Origin: Akkermansia muciniphila
GTDB lineage: Bacteria > Verrucomicrobiota > Verrucomicrobiia > Verrucomicrobiales > Akkermansiaceae
Assembly: GCA_945901795.1 (NCBI GenBank)
Contig: CAMDLP010000004.1
Location: forward strand, 1-64,000
Direction: 5' to 3'
Length of the DNA stretch: 64,000 bases
In this document: positions 21,038 to 30,453 of the stretch, in pieces
Layout: the number at the start of each line of letters is the position of its first letter
How positions within the stretch are numbered: position 1 is the first letter of the stretch
Position numbers and translations under genes: made by a program
The notes under the pieces: model-generated
Told to the model about the DNA's origin: nothing
Database searches by the model: none
What the model saw: only the letters and a program-made list of their open reading frames with translations

Positions 21038-22012
21038 TTAGGGTTTCGGCGTCTCGATGTGCTTGAAGAGGCGGAACAGGTCGCTGTTGGAGGTGAAGAT
21101 GGTGGTGGTGTCCTTGCCGAGCGTCTTCTGATAGGTATCGAGGGTTTTGACGAATTGGTAGAAGTCCGCGGCGGAGGGGCTGGAGTTGTAGGCGGAGGCG
21201 TAGATGCCGGTGGCCTGCGCGTCGGCCTTGCCTTTGATTTCCTGCTCCTTGCGGTAAGCTTCGGACTGGATGGAAAGCAGGTCTCGCTCTTTGCGACCGA
21301 GGATTTTGGCGGCCTCGCCGGCGCCTTCCGAGCGGAAGCGGTCGGCGATCTGCTCGCGCTCCGAGGACATGCGCTTGTAGATTTTATCGATCACGCCGGG
21401 TTTGTAATTGATGCGCTTGAAGCGGACGTCGAGCAACTCGATGCCCCAGGAGCGGACTTTCGGCTGGGCGGCTTTGAGGATTTGCTCGTCGAGTTTGTCT
21501 CTGCCGAAGCGGATCGGCGGGAGCTGGCCGAGGTTGGCACTGGCCGCGGCGAGTGCTTCGTCACGGACGGGCTTGCGGTCTTTATCGCTGCGGATGACCT
21601 CGATCAAATCGTGCGAGGCGATGACGTTGCGGGTTTCGCTGCCGATGATGTCGTCGAGCCGGGAAAGGGCGCTGCGCTCGTCGCGGAGTTTTTCGAAATA
21701 GGTCTTGGGGTCTGAAATGCGCCAGCGGGCGAAGTTGTCCACGGTGATGTAGAGCTTGTCGCGGGTGGGCATTTCGGTGGCGGGGCCGTCCCATTCGAGC
21801 ATCCGCTTTTCGATGCGGTTGACCTGCTGGATGAAGGGTTTTTTCCAATGCAGGCCGGCTTCGTTTTTCGCGGGGTCCGAGTTGATCGGATTTCCAACGG
21901 GTTTGCCGAACTCGGTGATGAAGACCTGCTCCGTTTGGTTCACGGTGAAGGCGCTGCTGGAGATGATGATGACGCCGACGAGGGCGATGAGGAGGATGGA
22001 AATGGTTTTCAT
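21038..22012 (-). CDS. hflC: SPFH-domain membrane protease modulator HflC
   Basis: 324 residues: one N-terminal membrane helix (ISILLIALVGVIIISSSAF), then an SPFH/band-7 domain beginning TEQVFITEFGKP and a long helical region (FRSEGAGEAAKILGRKERDL, RKEQEIKGKADAQAT). In other bacteria HflC forms with HflK a cage around the FtsH protease in the membrane and modulates its access to substrates. It lies 23 bases downstream of hflK in the same direction, as in the usual hflKC operon. No ftsH is in the window. Confidence 0.93.
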   Translation of the reverse strand: MKTISILLIALVGVIIISSSAFTVNQTEQVFITEFGKPVGNPINSDPAKNEAGLHWKKPFIQQVNRIEKRMLEWDGPATEMPTRDKLYITVDNFARWRISDPKTYFEKLRDERSALSRLDDIIGSETRNVIASHDLIEVIRSDKDRKPVRDEALAAASANLGQLPPIRFGRDKLDEQILKAAQPKVRSWGIELLDVRFKRINYKPGVIDKIYKRMSSEREQIADRFRSEGAGEAAKILGRKERDLLSIQSEAYRKEQEIKGKADAQATGIYASAYNSSPSAADFYQFVKTLDTYQKTLGKDTTTIFTSNSDLFRLFKHIETPKP

Positions 22013-22035
22013 GGAATTGGAAAGTTAGAAACGGA

Positions 22036-23004
22036 TCACTTGAGGTTCATGAGCGGGAGGAACTGTTTGGCGTCCTCGTCGATGATGATTTTCGAGCCGA
22101 GCTTGGGCAGCACCTCGTTCATGGTTTCCAGATAGAGACGCTGCTTGGTGATGGCCGGGGCTTTGTCGTATTGGACGAGCAGTTCCTTGAAGCGGGCGAC
22201 GTCACCCTCCGCCTCGTTGATGCGCTGGACGGCGAAGCCCTCGGCTCCGGAGATCCGCTGGTCGGCGAGTCCCTTGGCGCGCGGGATGACTTTGTTATAC
22301 TCGCCGTTGGCCTCGTTGATCATTTGCTCGCGCTCCTGCTGGGCGCGGTTGACCTCGTCGAAGGAGCGCTGCACCGGGCCGGGCGGGTGGACGTTCTTGA
22401 GTTGGATCTGCTCGGCGGTGACTCCCATGTTGATTTTTTCCAACAGAACCTTGAGGCGGATGAGCGCCTCGGTTTCGATCTCGGTGCGGCCGATGGTGAG
22501 GACCTCGTCCACGGTGCGGTCGCCGATGACCTCGCACATCACGCCCTCGGTGAGATCGCGCAGGGTGGAACCGGGGCGGCGGACTTGGTAGAGGTAGTCC
22601 TGCGGCGAGGAAATGCTGTATTGGAGGATCCACTCGACCTGGGCGGCGTTGAGGTCGCCGGTGACCATGTCGCGCTCGAGCTCCGGAGACTCGCTGGCTT
22701 GGTCCGGATTGGTCGCGCCGCTGGTGGTGAATCCGAACTCGAGTTTCAGCTGGCGGCGGACCGGGACGATGGTGGCGGTGTCGATGCCGTAGGGCAGCTT
22801 GAAATGCAGGCCAGGCTTGGCGATTTCCTTGAATTTTCCGAAGCGCTCCACGACCGCTTCCGACTCGGGACTTACGGTGTAATAGCTGGAAAACAGGCCT
22901 ATCAGGAGAAATACACCCAGCGGCGCGAGGATCAGCCACTTGGGATGGAAGTTCAGCTTCGGGCGCGGGAAATCGATGGTGTTGTTGAACGGAGGTGGCT
23001 TCAT
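22036..23004 (-). CDS. hflK: SPFH-domain membrane protease modulator HflK
   Basis: 322 residues: a short cytoplasmic N-terminus, a membrane helix at about 25-45 (LILAPLGVFLLIGLFSSYYT), then the band-7 domain with SPESEAVVERFGKFKEIAKPGLHFKLPYGIDTA-type residues, VEWILQYSISSPQDYL, and the helical tail with RSFDEVNRAQQEREQMINEA and RISGAEGFAVQRINEAEGD. It is the partner of HflC just downstream. The promoter should lie in the spacer at 23005-23159, shared with the divergent TPM-domain operon. Confidence 0.93.
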   Translation of the reverse strand: MKPPPFNNTIDFPRPKLNFHPKWLILAPLGVFLLIGLFSSYYTVSPESEAVVERFGKFKEIAKPGLHFKLPYGIDTATIVPVRRQLKLEFGFTTSGATNPDQASESPELERDMVTGDLNAAQVEWILQYSISSPQDYLYQVRRPGSTLRDLTEGVMCEVIGDRTVDEVLTIGRTEIETEALIRLKVLLEKINMGVTAEQIQLKNVHPPGPVQRSFDEVNRAQQEREQMINEANGEYNKVIPRAKGLADQRISGAEGFAVQRINEAEGDVARFKELLVQYDKAPAITKQRLYLETMNEVLPKLGSKIIIDEDAKQFLPLMNLK

Positions 23005-23159: not shown

Positions 23160-23855
23160 ATGACAATCACCATAAAAAAATCCGTCGTTGCCATTATGAA
23201 GTGCCCGCGTTGTGTCCAGCGAATCCACCGAGCTGCGGCGTCCTGCCCGCATTGTGGATTCACGCTCGCTGATGCGGACGCGCGCTTCGGCGCGGAGGAG
23301 GTGAGAATCCGCTGTCTGACTGACAGCGCGGGCATCCTCCGCCGCGGCGACCGCGAGAAGGTCGAGCTGGCGATGGAGAAAATCACCCGCCGCTTCCCGC
23401 AGGTTTTCGTGGCGATTTATACCGGCTCGCTGGGCGAGGTGGCGAACATCCGGCAGTTCGGTTTCTGGCTGTTGAACCGCTCGGCCTTCGAGGACGTGCC
23501 GGTGGAAAAGCCGAACGAGGCCGGCATCCTCATCACCATCGATCCCGAGTCCAAGGCAGCCGGGATGGTTTTCGGTTATCTGCTCGATCCGTTTCTCGAA
23601 GAGTCGGACACCTTCGAGTGTCTTTCCCGCGCGCACGCCTACTGGCTTGAGGGGCGCTACGCGGAGGGGATTTTGAGGGCGCTCAACCACCTCGACGGGA
23701 TTCTCCGCAAGCGCAGCCGCCAGGCCCGCCGCGATCCGGAGCACTTCGAGCGCAAGGTCATGCCTCCCACGCAGATGGGCGATCTGGTCCGCCGCATCCG
23801 GGCAGGTCACCGCCCGGTCGTCCAACAGGAAGAAACCTCGGAGGTCGTGTCGTGA
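23160..23855 (+). CDS. Zinc-ribbon protein with a TPM domain
   Basis: 231 residues, or 219 from the second ATG at 23196, which may be the true start because the ribbon MKCPRCVQRIH...CPHCGF follows at once. Two CxxC pairs form a zinc ribbon. The rest resembles a TPM domain (VEKITRRFPQVFVAIYTGSL, GILITIDPESKAAGMVFGYLLDPFL), here probably cytoplasmic because no signal peptide or membrane helix is seen. TPM domains have been linked to acid phosphatase activity and to photosystem assembly in other organisms, but no role can be fixed here. The stop overlaps the next start (GTGA). Confidence 0.8.
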   Translation: MTITIKKSVVAIMKCPRCVQRIHRAAASCPHCGFTLADADARFGAEEVRIRCLTDSAGILRRGDREKVELAMEKITRRFPQVFVAIYTGSLGEVANIRQFGFWLLNRSAFEDVPVEKPNEAGILITIDPESKAAGMVFGYLLDPFLEESDTFECLSRAHAYWLEGRYAEGILRALNHLDGILRKRSRQARRDPEHFERKVMPPTQMGDLVRRIRAGHRPVVQQEETSEVVS

Positions 23856-24880
23856 GGTTTTTGCCGGTCATCGCCACGGCCGTTTTCATTGCTGACGCGC
23901 ATGCCCTCGTCGAGCCGGCGCTTCCGGTCTGGGGCCTCAAGGAACGCGCCGAAATGGAAGCCACCGGCTGGATTCCCGGAGCCATCCTGCTAACCGACGC
24001 CCCCGTGCCCGACGAGCCGGCGCATGCCGCCCCCGAGCCGCTCCAAGTCGAGCAACCCAAGCCGGAGGAAATCGCCGGAGACCTCAAGCCGTCGTCCGAC
24101 ATCGCCGAGAAATTCCTGCCCGCCTATTTCGCCGAGCGCCCCAAAACTTTCCTCATCGATCCCCAGGGCCTGCTCTCCCCGGCCGACTACCGGGACCGCC
24201 TGAGCTTCCTCAATTACCACGCCAGCGACTCGTCCATCGACCTATTCGTTTACGTGATGGGCGGCGACCAAGAGATCCCCAGCGATGTCCGCGAGGAGGA
24301 AATGATCGAGCGCTTTTTCTCGGAGGGCCGCCCCGCCGCCATCGTTTACTACTACCTCGGAGCTCCGCAGCGCTCGGTCGTCTATCTGAGCCCGTCTATC
24401 ACCGACTCGATCTCCGCCGCCGAGCAACACCGCGCGCTCGAAAGCTCGGTCATGCAGGCGTTTGAAAAAATCAGGCCCGCCGAGCAGATCGAGAAATTCC
24501 TCGTTCAGATGTCCATCCGCATCTACTGGATGGAGCGGATGTTAGCCGGTGGGTCGGTCGTCAGCGATGCACCGATGCATGCGGTTTCCGCGGTTGCCGT
24601 GCAAAGCGCCGCGAAATCCGCGAAACTTCTCCACCTGCAGGAACTCGCTTTCAAGTTTGCTGCTCCCGCAGGCATGGTCCTCGGCACCATCGTGCTCGTC
24701 GTGGGTTTCAGTCGCTGGTTGCGCCTCGGTGCCCGCTATCGGTTCCCGGATTTCGAGGTCGAGCCTCGTCTCGGCGGAGCACACGCCGCCGGAGTCGGTG
24801 CGGTGATCTCCTTCGCCAGCGCCGCCGTGCCACCCGCCTCGCAGCGGGACCAGGTCCCGGATTATTTGCGCCGGGCGTGA
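23852..24880 (+). CDS. Exported TPM-domain-like membrane protein
   Basis: 342 residues from a GTG that overlaps the upstream stop by four bases, so the two genes are translationally coupled. A signal peptide (FLPVIATAVFIADAHA) is followed by a domain with FLIDPQGLLSPADYRDRLSFLNYHA, DLFVYVMGGDQEIP and AAIVYYYLGAPQRSVVYLSP, a TPM-like alternation of strands and helices. A single membrane helix (about 268-288, GMVLGTIVLVVGFSRWL) precedes a cytoplasmic tail. One partner is inside and one outside the membrane, which suggests a joint envelope function. The family role is unknown. Confidence 0.78.
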   Translation: MRFLPVIATAVFIADAHALVEPALPVWGLKERAEMEATGWIPGAILLTDAPVPDEPAHAAPEPLQVEQPKPEEIAGDLKPSSDIAEKFLPAYFAERPKTFLIDPQGLLSPADYRDRLSFLNYHASDSSIDLFVYVMGGDQEIPSDVREEEMIERFFSEGRPAAIVYYYLGAPQRSVVYLSPSITDSISAAEQHRALESSVMQAFEKIRPAEQIEKFLVQMSIRIYWMERMLAGGSVVSDAPMHAVSAVAVQSAAKSAKLLHLQELAFKFAAPAGMVLGTIVLVVGFSRWLRLGARYRFPDFEVEPRLGGAHAAGVGAVISFASAAVPPASQRDQVPDYLRRA

Positions 24881-26292: not shown

Positions 26293-26347
26293 CACATTCC
26301 GGGTGCAAGGCGCTTGCATGGCGGCGTTTAACGGGGGAAGTTCCGGC

Positions 26348-26947
26348 ATGACCGATTGGGAAAACCGTTATCAGGCGGGTGACATGCCGTGGGAAAAAGG
26401 CCAGCCGTCGCCGCCTTTGTTGGAGCTGCTGGAAAAATTTGAGGATTGGGGAAGCGGGCCGATTCTGGTGCCGGGCTGCGGATTCGGGCACGACGTGCGG
26501 GCGTTGGGCGTGCTGGGGATTCCGGTGGTGGGGGTGGATCTGGCGCCGACGGCGGTCGAGCGGGCGCGGGAATTTCCGGGGACCGGGATAGAGAGTTACG
26601 AGTTGGGAAATTTCCTCGATCCGGAATGGCGGGTGGGGCGGGAGTTTTCGGCGATCTGGGAGCACACGTGTTTTTGCGCGATCGATCCGGGTGACCGCCA
26701 GCGCTACGCGGAGGCGGCGGCGGGTTGTCTGGCGGAAGGCGGTTTGCTGGCGGGGGTGTTTTTCCTGACGCCGTTCGATCCGGGCGAGGAGGCGGTCGGG
26801 CCGCCGTTCGCGGTGACGGTGGAGGAGCTCGACGCGTGGTTTTCGCCGTGGTTCGAGCGGTTGGACGGTTGGGTGCCGCAAGCGGCGTTTCCGGGACGGG
26901 CGGGGCGGGAATGGATCGGACTATTCCGCAAAATCGCACAGCCATGA
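26348..26947 (+). CDS. SAM-dependent methyltransferase, thiopurine methyltransferase (TPMT) family
   Basis: 199 residues from the ATG at 26348 (MTDWENRYQAGDMPWEKG), which matches the family start and has a GGGGGA box 12 bases upstream. The motif DMPWEKGQPSP, SAM-binding ILVPGCGFGHDVRALG and VVGVDLAPTAVERA, and the later FSAIWEHTCFCAID are typical of TPMT-like enzymes that methylate S, Se or halide groups. The substrate is unknown. Its stop overlaps a possible ATG of the protease gene (26944), so the two may be co-transcribed. Confidence 0.88.
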   Translation: MTDWENRYQAGDMPWEKGQPSPPLLELLEKFEDWGSGPILVPGCGFGHDVRALGVLGIPVVGVDLAPTAVERAREFPGTGIESYELGNFLDPEWRVGREFSAIWEHTCFCAIDPGDRQRYAEAAAGCLAEGGLLAGVFFLTPFDPGEEAVGPPFAVTVEELDAWFSPWFERLDGWVPQAAFPGRAGREWIGLFRKIAQP

Positions 26948-26994: not shown

Positions 26995-27975
26995 ATGAAG
27001 TTAACATGGATTTTCCCGATGCTGGCGCTGCTGCCGTGGTCCGCCATCGCCCAGGACGGCCGGGCGTATGTGAATGACCTGAAGGCGCCGGAAAGCCGCA
27101 AGGACCTGGAAACCATCCAAACGGCGGTGGGCGACGCGCTGCCCAATGCGCGGGCGGCGACGGTGTGCATCGAGATCAAGGAGGGCTCGGGGACCGGAGT
27201 GATCGTCTCGGCGGACGGGCTCGTTCTAACGGCGGCGCACGTGGCGACCGGCGTGAAGCAGAAGGTGACGGTAATCCTGGAGGACGGCACCCGGCTGAAG
27301 GCGGAAACGCTGGGCCTGGTGGCTGACAAGGACGCGGCGATGATCCGGATCACGGAGCAGGGGACCTATCCGTTCGTGGAAATCGACCGCGCGGAAACGA
27401 CCAAGCTCGGCGACTGGGTGTTCTCGCTGGGGCACTCGGGCGGCTTCGACAAGGAGCGCGGATCGGTGGTGAGGCTGGGCCGGTTAGTGCGGATCGCCAA
27501 CTCGACATTTCAATCCGACTGCATGCTGATCGGCGGCGATTCGGGCGGGCCGTTGTTTGACCTGACGGGGAAACTGGTAGGCATCCACTCGCGGGTCGGC
27601 CAGCAGATGCAGGTGAACATGCATGTGCCGATGACGGAATTCATCGCGAACTGGGAGGGCATGTTGAAGGGGGAGTTCATCGGCGAGGGGCCGTATGCGG
27701 AGAAGCCGGTGAAGGGCAACGGCTTCCTCGGTTTGGCGACGGAGTCCCGGACGGAAGGCGGCCTGCGGGTGACGAAAGTGGGCGACAAGAGTCCGGCGCA
27801 AGTAGCGGGGATCAAGAAAGGCGATGTCCTGTTGAAAATGAACGGCGTGGCGTTGGAGAAACGCGAGCAGATGCAGGAGCTTCTCAAGGAAATGTCGGCC
27901 GGGGACGAACTCAATCTCGAAACGGAACGCGGCGGCAAAGCCCAAACCTTTACCCTCAATCTCGGTGAACGCTAA
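26995..27975 (+). CDS. Trypsin-like (HtrA-type) serine protease with PDZ domain, periplasmic
   Basis: 326 residues from the ATG at 26995, whose first 20 residues (FPMLALLPWSAIAQ) are a signal peptide; in-frame ATGs at 26944 and 26968 would only add a poor leader. The catalytic triad is visible: His82 in LTAAHVATG, Asp113 (or 111) in VADKDAAMIRI and Ser183 in IGGDSGGPLFD. A PDZ domain follows (about 235-320, GLRVTKVGDKSPAQVAGIKKGDVLLKM). Architecture is that of single-PDZ HtrA/DegS proteases of envelope quality control. The next gene, a related pseudoprotease, starts 11 bases before this stop. Confidence 0.92.
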   Translation: MKLTWIFPMLALLPWSAIAQDGRAYVNDLKAPESRKDLETIQTAVGDALPNARAATVCIEIKEGSGTGVIVSADGLVLTAAHVATGVKQKVTVILEDGTRLKAETLGLVADKDAAMIRITEQGTYPFVEIDRAETTKLGDWVFSLGHSGGFDKERGSVVRLGRLVRIANSTFQSDCMLIGGDSGGPLFDLTGKLVGIHSRVGQQMQVNMHVPMTEFIANWEGMLKGEFIGEGPYAEKPVKGNGFLGLATESRTEGGLRVTKVGDKSPAQVAGIKKGDVLLKMNGVALEKREQMQELLKEMSAGDELNLETERGGKAQTFTLNLGER

Positions 27976-28966
27976 CTGGATTTTCTCAATCGCAAGCGCC
28001 GGTCTGACGCTCGCCGCGGCCGGGCAGCAGAGCCTGGATTCCGCCTACCGGACCACCGGCACGGCGGTGGTGGCGGCGTTCGAGACGCAGCGCCAGGTCC
28101 TGCAAACATCGAGCGCGGTGATTCTGGACGGCCGCAAGGAGATCGGCTACGGCGTGGTGATTTCCGCGGACGGGCACATTCTAACCAAGGCGAGCGAGAT
28201 TCTCGACGTGAAGACGCTGGCGGTCACGGTGGACCAGACGAAATACGAAACCGTGAAGCTGCTGACGGTGGACCCGACGTGGGACGTGGCGCTGTTGAAA
28301 ATCGAGGCGAGCGGGCTGGTGCCGGTCGTTTATGCGCCGACGAGCGCGGTTCCGCAGGGGACTTGGGTGGTGGCGAACGGCGCGACGACCCGCACGGCGA
28401 GACGCTTGTTAGCCGGGATCGTCAGCGCGAAGATCCGCGAGATTCCGCCATCCGGCGGTGCCGCGCTCGGGGTGGTGCTCAACGGGAAGTCGAAAGTTCT
28501 CGAAGTGGACGCGGTGAATGAAAAAAGCGGCGCGAAGGAGGCCGGCTTGCAGAAGGGCGACGTGATTTTATCGATCGAGGGCAAGAAGCTGAAAAAGATC
28601 GAGGACATCGCGGAAATCATCAAGGACCGCAAGGCCGGCAGCACGGTGAAGATGACTTACCGCCGCAAGGGCGCGGAAATCACGGTGGATGTCCGGCTGG
28701 CCGCCCGCGGCGAGATGTTCACCGACCAGATGAACCGCAACGACCAGATGAGCGGCGAGTTTTCCCCGCGGCGCAGCGGATTTCCACGGGTGATGCAGCA
28801 CGACATCCTCGGTAGCAGATCGGTGGTGGGCGGGCCGGTGCTCGATCTCGACGGGCGCTGCATCGGGATGAACATCGCACGGGCGAACCGCGCGGAGAGT
28901 TTCGCGATCCCGGTGGAAGATCTTCAGGAGCTAGCCGGGCGCTTGATGAAGCAGGGGGGAAACTAG
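27965..28966 (+). CDS. HtrA-like pseudoprotease with the PDZ domain inserted in the protease fold
   Basis: 333 residues from a GTG at 27965, overlapping the active protease gene. Signal peptide at about 1-19. The trypsin-like fold begins SAVILDGRKEIGYGVVISADGHILT, but the catalytic His is replaced (LTKASEI, Ser77) while Asp107 remains. After residue 160 a PDZ domain (about 165-245, VNEKSGAKEAGLQKGDVILSI) comes before the second half of the protease barrel, which reappears as RSVVGGPVLDLDGRCIGMNI with Val288 where the nucleophilic Ser should be, and SFAIPVEDL. Two triad residues are lost, so no proteolysis is expected. It may regulate or chaperone with the upstream enzyme. Confidence 0.85.
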   Translation: MNANWIFSIASAGLTLAAAGQQSLDSAYRTTGTAVVAAFETQRQVLQTSSAVILDGRKEIGYGVVISADGHILTKASEILDVKTLAVTVDQTKYETVKLLTVDPTWDVALLKIEASGLVPVVYAPTSAVPQGTWVVANGATTRTARRLLAGIVSAKIREIPPSGGAALGVVLNGKSKVLEVDAVNEKSGAKEAGLQKGDVILSIEGKKLKKIEDIAEIIKDRKAGSTVKMTYRRKGAEITVDVRLAARGEMFTDQMNRNDQMSGEFSPRRSGFPRVMQHDILGSRSVVGGPVLDLDGRCIGMNIARANRAESFAIPVEDLQELAGRLMKQGGN

Positions 28967-30385
28967 TCAGCGGCCGGCGGCGCGGTGATTCTTGAAAATC
29001 GCCAGCGTGCGCTCGCGTTCGGTTTTGTGATCCACGCAGGGCAGGGGATAATCCGGGGCGATGGGGTTTCCGTCCTTGGGAGCTTCCAGAAAGCGGGACG
29101 GGTGGGTTTTCGCGAGTTCGGGCACCCATTTCCTGATATATATACCGTCGGGGTCGTAGCGGGCGCTTTGCGACCACGGATTTTGGATCCGGAAATAGGG
29201 TGCCGCGTCCGCTCCGGTGCCCGCCGACCACTGCCAGCCGCCGTTGTTCGAGGCGATTTCCCCATCGACAAGATTCTGCATGAACCACGATTCGCCCTGC
29301 TTCCAGTCGATGTGCAGGTCCTTGGTCAGGAACATCGCGGTGATCATGCGCAGGCGGTTGTGCATGAATCCGGTGGCCTTGAGCTCGCGCATCCCGGCAT
29401 CGACGATGGGGAAGCCGGTCATTCCTTCCTTCCATGCCTCAAACCGTTGGTCCGGCTCGTCCCACGGCAGGCCGCGCCAGTCGGCGTTGAATTCCTCGTC
29501 GAGCACGTTCGGAAAATGGTGGAGGATCGCGAAATAGAACTCCCGCCACGCGAGCTCTTTGATGAAAACGTCGATTCCGGCCCGTCCCGCGACATCGGCG
29601 GCCGCGCGGGCTTTCATCACTTCCGCATAGACGGTGCGGATGGAAACGAGGCCGAACCGCAGGTCCTGGGAAATCCGCGAAGTGCCGCTTTGCGCTGGAA
29701 AATCACGTTTCGCGGCGTAGTTCTGGATTTTTCCGGCGATGGCGCGCTTCAAGCGCTCCCGTGCCGACCGTTCGCCGGGCTCGACGATCCGGGCCGCGGG
29801 GATTTCCAAGTCCCAGGCCGCGACGGTGGGCAGCGGCAGCGATTTGATCCCGGCCGGAGTGCGCAGCGCGGGCGGTTTCGCAAGCGGTGACGGCTTCGGC
29901 AGTCCGAGCCAATTCCGGCTGTAAGGCGTGTAAACCCGGTATGGCAGCGCGCTTTGGGTCAAAATCTCATCCTGCCCGTGCAAGGTGGCGTCCGCGTGGG
30001 CGTGACATTCCACTCCGAGCTCCGCGCACAGCTCCCGCACCGCCTTTTCCACGGATTTCCCGAAAGGATCGGGATCGGCGTTGAAATGAACCGCCACGGC
30101 CCGGCACTCCTTGATGAGCTTGCGGAGTTCGTCAACCGCTTTGCCTTGGCGGATGATCAGGCGGCCGTCGAGGGTTTCGAGGTTCTTGGCCAGCGACTCC
30201 AACGAGCCACAAAGGAAATGCTGGCGATTCGGTCCCGTCCAGGCATGGACGCCGCGCCAGTCGCTTGAAATATAAACAGGAACAACGGGAAGTCCGGGTT
30301 TCGCCGCGCGACACAAGGCCGTGTTATCCGCAATTCGCAGATCGCGGCGAAACCAATGGATTATGGAGGCTTTCAGGTCCGGCAT
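28967..30385 (-). CDS. phrB: Deoxyribodipyrimidine photolyase (class I CPD type)
   Basis: 472 residues from the ATG at 30385 (MPDLKASIIHWFRRDLRIADN); an upstream ATG at 30412 is less likely. It uses blue light and FAD to split cyclobutane pyrimidine dimers. The N-terminal alpha/beta antenna domain is followed by the FAD domain with WREFYFAILHHFPNV, GFPIVDAGMRELKATGFMHNR, the SWFMQNLVDGEIASNNGGWQW block and a final NPWSQSARYDPDG. The Trp residues of the electron-transfer chain are in place. Its stop abuts that of the pseudoprotease on the other strand. Confidence 0.93.
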   Translation of the reverse strand: MPDLKASIIHWFRRDLRIADNTALCRAAKPGLPVVPVYISSDWRGVHAWTGPNRQHFLCGSLESLAKNLETLDGRLIIRQGKAVDELRKLIKECRAVAVHFNADPDPFGKSVEKAVRELCAELGVECHAHADATLHGQDEILTQSALPYRVYTPYSRNWLGLPKPSPLAKPPALRTPAGIKSLPLPTVAAWDLEIPAARIVEPGERSARERLKRAIAGKIQNYAAKRDFPAQSGTSRISQDLRFGLVSIRTVYAEVMKARAAADVAGRAGIDVFIKELAWREFYFAILHHFPNVLDEEFNADWRGLPWDEPDQRFEAWKEGMTGFPIVDAGMRELKATGFMHNRLRMITAMFLTKDLHIDWKQGESWFMQNLVDGEIASNNGGWQWSAGTGADAAPYFRIQNPWSQSARYDPDGIYIRKWVPELAKTHPSRFLEAPKDGNPIAPDYPLPCVDHKTERERTLAIFKNHRAAGR

Positions 30386-30453
30386 GTGCGGAACTTGTCG
30401 TGCATCAGGCACGGCGCAAACCCTGAAATTCCCAGAATCCCGGAGTTTTCGCT

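Follow-up and report, generated by a model that had tools for sequence, protein, structure and literature searches.

An active HtrA-type protease paired with an HtrA-fold pseudoprotease that carries a PDZ domain within loop L3 in Akkermansia muciniphila and other Verrucomicrobiota

In magnetotactic alphaproteobacteria the pseudoprotease MamO is needed noncatalytically for MamE-dependent proteolysis (PMC4794232). In plants, the inactive protease domain of Deg7 has a protein-protein role (PMC3473262). Yeast Nma111 likewise has an active and an inactive HtrA domain in one chain. In DegP, the residues T176, S183, R187 and Q200 form an activation cluster that acts across subunits, and in DegS residue R178 of loop L3 reaches the LD loop in the subunit next to it, a PDZ ligand being able to activate both in cis and in trans (PMC11642142). 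Loop L3 of HTRA1 spans Ser298-Leu307 and includes Arg302 (PMC5666011). Of the plant proteases Deg5 and Deg8, the former lacks a PDZ domain and the latter has one (PMC3640471). Deg5 and Deg8 form a complex; both keep the catalytic triad, and the PDZ domain of Deg8 is C-terminal.

The window, that is, the whole stretch of 64,000 nucleotides of Akkermansia muciniphila DNA that was analysed, contains two overlapping genes on the forward strand, here called P1 and P2. P1 (26995..27975, + strand, 326 aa) was assigned as an active HtrA (S1C) protease with a C-terminal PDZ domain on the basis of Pfam matches and triad conservation. Pfam identified Trypsin_2 at residues 66-197 (1.3e-25) and PDZ_2 at residues 243-323 (5.6e-15; 27721..27963). 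The first-pass annotation had named His82, Asp113 and Ser183 as the triad, and this held both in the sequence and in the alignment of relatives (codons at 27238..27240, 27331..27333 and 27541..27543, all + strand, the last within the motif GGDSGGPLF). Among 103 distinct P1 relatives, Asp and Ser are present in all 103 and His in 102; the single row without His is truncated ahead of the His site. P1 thus meets the criteria of an HtrA/Do peptidase of family S1C, a chymotrypsin fold with a His-Asp-Ser triad and a C-terminal PDZ domain, and is an ordinary HtrA protease. Its activity is inferred, there being no assay data, and its export is inferred from sequence alone through a putative Sec signal peptide, MKLTWIFPMLALLPWSAIAQ (26995..27054, + strand). 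The possibility that P1 lacks loop L3 was rejected, since its R163 aligns with DegP R187, the L3 arginine, and is 95% conserved. The P1 position matching DegP Q200 is Q in only 55% of relatives by weight, and that matching DegP S183 is mostly V or L, a result that rests on a gapped alignment.

P2 (27965..28966, + strand, 333 aa, GTG start) overlaps the end of P1 by 11 bases (27965..27975), and comparable short overlaps occur in many relatives. Its N-terminus, like that of P1, has a hydrophobic stretch resembling a Sec signal; this is a reading of the sequence only, and export of P2 is likewise inferred. Pfam matched Trypsin_2 to residues 61-158 (4.3e-14) and PDZ_2 to residues 167-245 (4.9e-14), and the PDZ match sits between two portions of the protease fold. 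The first portion comprises residues 61-160 (28145..28444). It is followed by an insert of residues 161-267 (28445..28765), consisting of the PDZ domain (residues 163-246; 28451..28702), which has the LG motif of the carboxylate loop with L168 and G169 conserved, and a linker. The chain ends with the strand block of the protease fold (residues 268-333; 28766..28963). Alignment of P2 with the DegP-like chain 22kg placed residues 58-162 on 95-199 and residues 268-331 on 198-265, and the family profile breaks between residues 200 and 201 of the same chain. The insert begins two residues past Arg158 (28436..28438), the L3 activation arginine that corresponds in alignments to DegP R187, DegS R178 and HTRA1 R302. 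Since Arg158 aligns with HTRA1 Arg302 and DegP Arg187 and the insert starts two residues later, the insert sits in loop L3.

Structure prediction of P2 alone gave a complete protease fold with an inserted PDZ domain (AlphaFold2, mean pLDDT 85.8, pTM 0.72, 31-row alignment). Using VIA-align, the model matched the protease domain of AlgW (7co5_B, residues 53-276) over 185 residues with a Z score of 24.7 and an rmsd of 2.3 Å, the aligned P2 residues being scattered across positions 37-332, and for DegS without its PDZ domain the match covered 186 of 198 residues. The P2 protease fold is therefore complete and the PDZ domain is an insertion. Whole-chain TM scores from Foldseek were low (approximately 0.3), as expected given the different domain order. 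Measured against the HtrA/Do S1C criteria, P2 has the protease fold and has neither the catalytic triad nor a C-terminal PDZ domain.

These results agree with what had been read initially from the letters. The 11-base overlap, Ser77 at the His position and Val288 at the Ser position all held. The claim that the PDZ domain of P2 comes ahead of the strand block that usually precedes it held in both the sequence alignment and the predicted fold, and the statement that this is not the ordinary HtrA layout also held, with loop L3 now identified as the site of insertion. The first-pass annotation had added that its reading would be refuted if P2 aligned as a simple protease followed by PDZ, or if close relatives of P2 kept an intact triad. 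The former did not occur: a plain protease-then-PDZ protein is ruled out by the 22kg alignment, the profile break and the fold superposition. An intact triad was found in none of 104 distinct P2 relatives.

Relatives were collected from 39 related genomes, a bacterial genome collection and 387 genomes of the phylum, and systematic searching was confined to Verrucomicrobiota. About 100 distinct Verrucomicrobiota relatives share the architecture and the lost residues, so the layout of P2 is not a chance or local artefact; on the same grounds a frameshifted or decayed gene was rejected. The PDZ domain lies inside the sensor loop L3 in every P2 member. At the His site the 104 distinct sequences have S (98), E (2), T (2) or a gap (2), and H in none. 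The triad Asp (Asp107; 28283..28285) is retained in 102 of the 104. The nucleophile position, occupied by Val288 in the window (28826..28828), varies elsewhere among V, M, C, T, I, Q, A, E and N, with one gap and a single S. The locus of this lone S was not traced and it may be an alignment effect; the row of the fused homologue L120 is irregular at this position.

Weighted conservation (Neff 67) was 98% for R158 and R309, 97-98% for Q278, 97% for D107 and K75, 95% for S77, 92% for R306, 90% for S154 and 86% for E78, while position 288 is variable; K75, S77, D107, R306, R309, S154, R158 and Q278 are among the most conserved positions of the protein. K75, A76, S77 and E78 form a remodelled His-loop (motif TK-x-SE; 28187..28198) in which S77 takes the place of the catalytic His. 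The high conservation of these residues indicates that the dead site has been rebuilt and is under constraint, and that it is not decaying. One explanation is that K75, S77, E78, D107, R306 and R309 bind a metal, an anion or a peptide or perform new chemistry, the pair then sensing that ligand. In favor of this, the residues equal the structural glycines of the fold in conservation whereas position 288 varies, and MamO has reused the HtrA fold for metal binding (PMC4794232). However, the residues may form a salt-bridge plug that stabilizes the dead cleft, no ligand is known and the geometry is unchecked. We consider this explanation unlikely.

Three of the four residues of the DegP activation cluster have equivalents in P2 that are strongly conserved, namely S154 (DegP S183), R158 (DegP R187) and Q278 (DegP Q200, DegS Q191; 28796..28798). 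The P2 equivalent of the fourth, T176, shows no conservation. At the Q200 position P2 has Q in 97% of sequences, compared with 55% in P1, which supports a role of P2 in switching.

Pairing of the two genes is near-obligate. P1 lies directly upstream of P2 on the same strand in 87 of the 104 distinct P2 segments, and in 11 others the two are fused, ten as P1-P2 and one as P2-P1. No P1 was found at the cutoff for the remaining six, of which three are at contig ends, two have a weaker P1 nearby (L072, L124) and one is unlinked. The unlinked case, the only clear one, is genome G268, with P2 on contig C46 (L132) and P1 at C38:18682-19593. The reversed fusion (L120, 2572-4482, - strand), with P2 before P1, is the only one of its kind and comes from another family of the phylum (f44). 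The same genome as the window contains a second active/dead pair on contig C39 (L069, 2264-4449), the P2 of which has the motif TKWSE and an extra C-terminal tail that is coiled-coil-like. In a plasmid search with P2 all matches were partial, and none covered more than 32% of the query.

On the P2 tree the fused/separate label changes at least 5 times, 4 of these being forced by well-supported branches; as such changes are gains or losses, several fusions or splits have taken place. P1 and P2 each form a single clade (SH-aLRT 99) with many subgroups common to both in an unrooted tree, and on this evidence P2 as a recent copy of P1 was rejected. The P1 and P2 profiles pick the same 37 of the 387 phylum genomes with almost equal copy numbers, and ten genomes of one genus (g13) lack both. 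The genomes are not independent, and this co-occurrence should be counted as one lineage-wide association together with joint absence within that genus. The proposal of a dedicated pair, made at first reading, is well supported by adjacency, by the repeated changes between fused and separate forms and by identical presence and absence in the 387 genomes.

The partner does not always carry its own PDZ domain. Among the 87 adjacent P1 proteins, 75 have one and 12 have a match that stops short of the PDZ end; ten of these 12 belong to genus g13, in which P1 has lost the domain. The g13 partner is a protein of 246 aa (L127, 4208-4948), and because it has no PDZ domain, that of P2 is the sole PDZ of the pair. 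P1 is also without PDZ in some fusions. The g13 pair resembles Deg5 and Deg8 in joining a PDZ-less protein to a PDZ-bearing partner. Such cases, together with the conserved carboxylate loop of the P2 PDZ (L168 86%, G169 97%), would fit a substrate adaptor in which the PDZ domain of P2 catches the C-termini of clients and passes them to P1 without allostery. However, this PDZ would be redundant in the 75 adjacent pairs where P1 has its own, and the adaptor leaves both the insertion in L3 and the conserved old active site unexplained. It is therefore improbable in our judgement.

A fused homologue of 632 aa (L121) was predicted as two modules with a pLDDT of 84.7 and a pTM of 0.78 (21 rows). Two equal modules rotating freely should give a lower pTM, which suggests that P1 and P2 pack in a defined manner. 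This is an inference from a model of a single homologue, and the interface coordinates were not inspected. A scaffold comparable to Deg7 can also be envisaged, in which the dead domain oligomerizes or anchors P1 and the PDZ domain tethers clients or a partner with no catalytic switching. The inactive protease domain of AtDeg7 is reportedly involved in trimerization (PMC3473262), and the fusions and the pairing fit a scaffold equally well. A scaffold would not, however, need the L3 arginine and the activation-cluster glutamine at approximately 98% conservation, nor a PDZ domain in the sensor loop of every member. It remains possible but is not likely.

We favor a different reading, in which P1 and P2 would together make up a single exported protease machine, each supplying one half. 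P1 would cut. P2 would have lost catalysis and kept the sensing half, physically fused through the PDZ domain spliced into L3, the loop through which, in DegS and DegP, the PDZ domain signals to the LD loop in the neighboring subunit. The two proteins may assemble as mixed, trimer-like complexes in the periplasm, where a C-terminal peptide or a misfolded client would bind the PDZ domain of P2. The ligand-bound PDZ would move L3 and Arg158 and thereby order the active site of the neighboring P1 together with its LD loop, making P2 a trans-acting allosteric switch and not an enzyme. Whether P2 gates or anchors P1, as the first-pass annotation had suggested, is still a matter of inference without interaction or activity data; because P2 keeps the HtrA activation-cluster residues, allosteric gating is favored over simple anchoring. 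We believe that a mixed complex in which ligand at the P2 PDZ switches the neighboring P1 is the best explanation, although we would give it no better than an equal chance of being right, since the complex, the ligand and the direction of control are all inferred and there are no interaction, oligomer or activity data. The bolder reading, a split allosteric protease in which a dead-subunit L3-PDZ sensor switches a separate active HtrA in a mixed ring, with sensing and catalysis split between co-inherited genes, is offered more tentatively, as the balance lies slightly against it.

Several points weigh against the switch. The cluster residues of P2 may serve the fold or homotrimers of P2, and P1, which mostly keeps its own PDZ and L3 arginine, may activate itself without P2. 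The T176 equivalent is not conserved, and a single fused homologue underlies the argument from pTM. P2 could also be a dedicated inhibitor that keeps P1 off until its PDZ domain is occupied. In ligand-free DegS, L3 makes autoinhibitory contacts with PDZ (PMC11642142), and a covalent link between L3 and PDZ could serve likewise. However, the retained cluster residues stabilize the active state and an inhibitor would have no need for them, and we regard this as very unlikely. None of the scaffold, adaptor, new-ligand and inhibitor readings can be excluded.

The surroundings of the pair were also recorded. A TPMT-type methyltransferase gene (26303..26947, + strand; Pfam TPMT, 8.8e-26) ends 47 bases upstream of P1, and relatives of it lie near the pair in approximately 40 of the loci fetched, a number that includes many duplicate records. 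The gene may belong to an operon with the pair and be transcribed together with it. A DNA photolyase gene (28967-30412, - strand) is convergent with P2 and ends where P2 ends; a relative is near the pair in approximately 30 of the loci fetched. Further upstream are tandem SPFH/Band 7 genes (21038-23004, - strand) that resemble an HflK/HflC pair, and a gene for a TPM-domain protein with a zinc-ribbon-like N-terminus (23160-24880, + strand). The latter overlaps by four bases a second gene, with a possibly exported product and no Pfam match.

Compared with the described systems, P1/P2 shares with MamE/MamO an active HtrA-type protease functionally coupled to a trypsin-fold pseudoprotease, the coupling being inferred for P1/P2. 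Because MamO activates MamE without catalysis, the proposed working principle has a precedent. MamE/MamO belongs to another phylum and another setting, and P2 scored only 29 bits against the NCBIfam MamO model, below its cutoff of 800. No PDZ domain within the fold has been described for MamO, whereas the PDZ of P2 is inserted in the fold and nothing follows the protease fold at the C-terminus of P2. A single Deg7 chain combines an active with an inactive HtrA domain, a feature shared by the 11 fused relatives only; the window pair and most others are separate genes. The order in Deg7 is PD-PDZ-PDZ-PDia-PDZ-PDZ, with PDZ domains after each protease domain, whereas that of P2 is inside L3 of the dead domain. 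DegS, DegP and HTRA1 resemble P1/P2 in fold, in the L3 arginine and glutamine of the activation cluster and in the logic of signaling from PDZ to a neighbor. They are, however, homo-oligomers in which every subunit is active and has its PDZ domain at the C-terminus, while in P1/P2 a PDZ lies covalently within L3 and sensing and cutting would be divided between two genes. Neither a pair of this type nor a PDZ domain inserted in a chymotrypsin fold was found in the literature searched, which is weak evidence since most subscription journals lie outside it. Most likely, the coupling of active and dead HtrA proteins is already known and the PDZ domain inserted in L3, absent from MamE/MamO and Deg7, is new.

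P2 and its relatives constitute a defined family of pseudoproteases whose domain topology is new. The lineage in which they occur takes in Akkermansiaceae and the cultured species Luteolibacter pohnpeiensis. Studies of signaling from PDZ to the active site through L3 and the LD loop of the neighbor have used homo-oligomers, in which cis effects are difficult to tell apart from trans effects. In P1/P2 nature has apparently separated the two, as one subunit can cut and the other seems to be kept for sensing and relay. Mutations in the dead subunit would probe trans-allostery directly.
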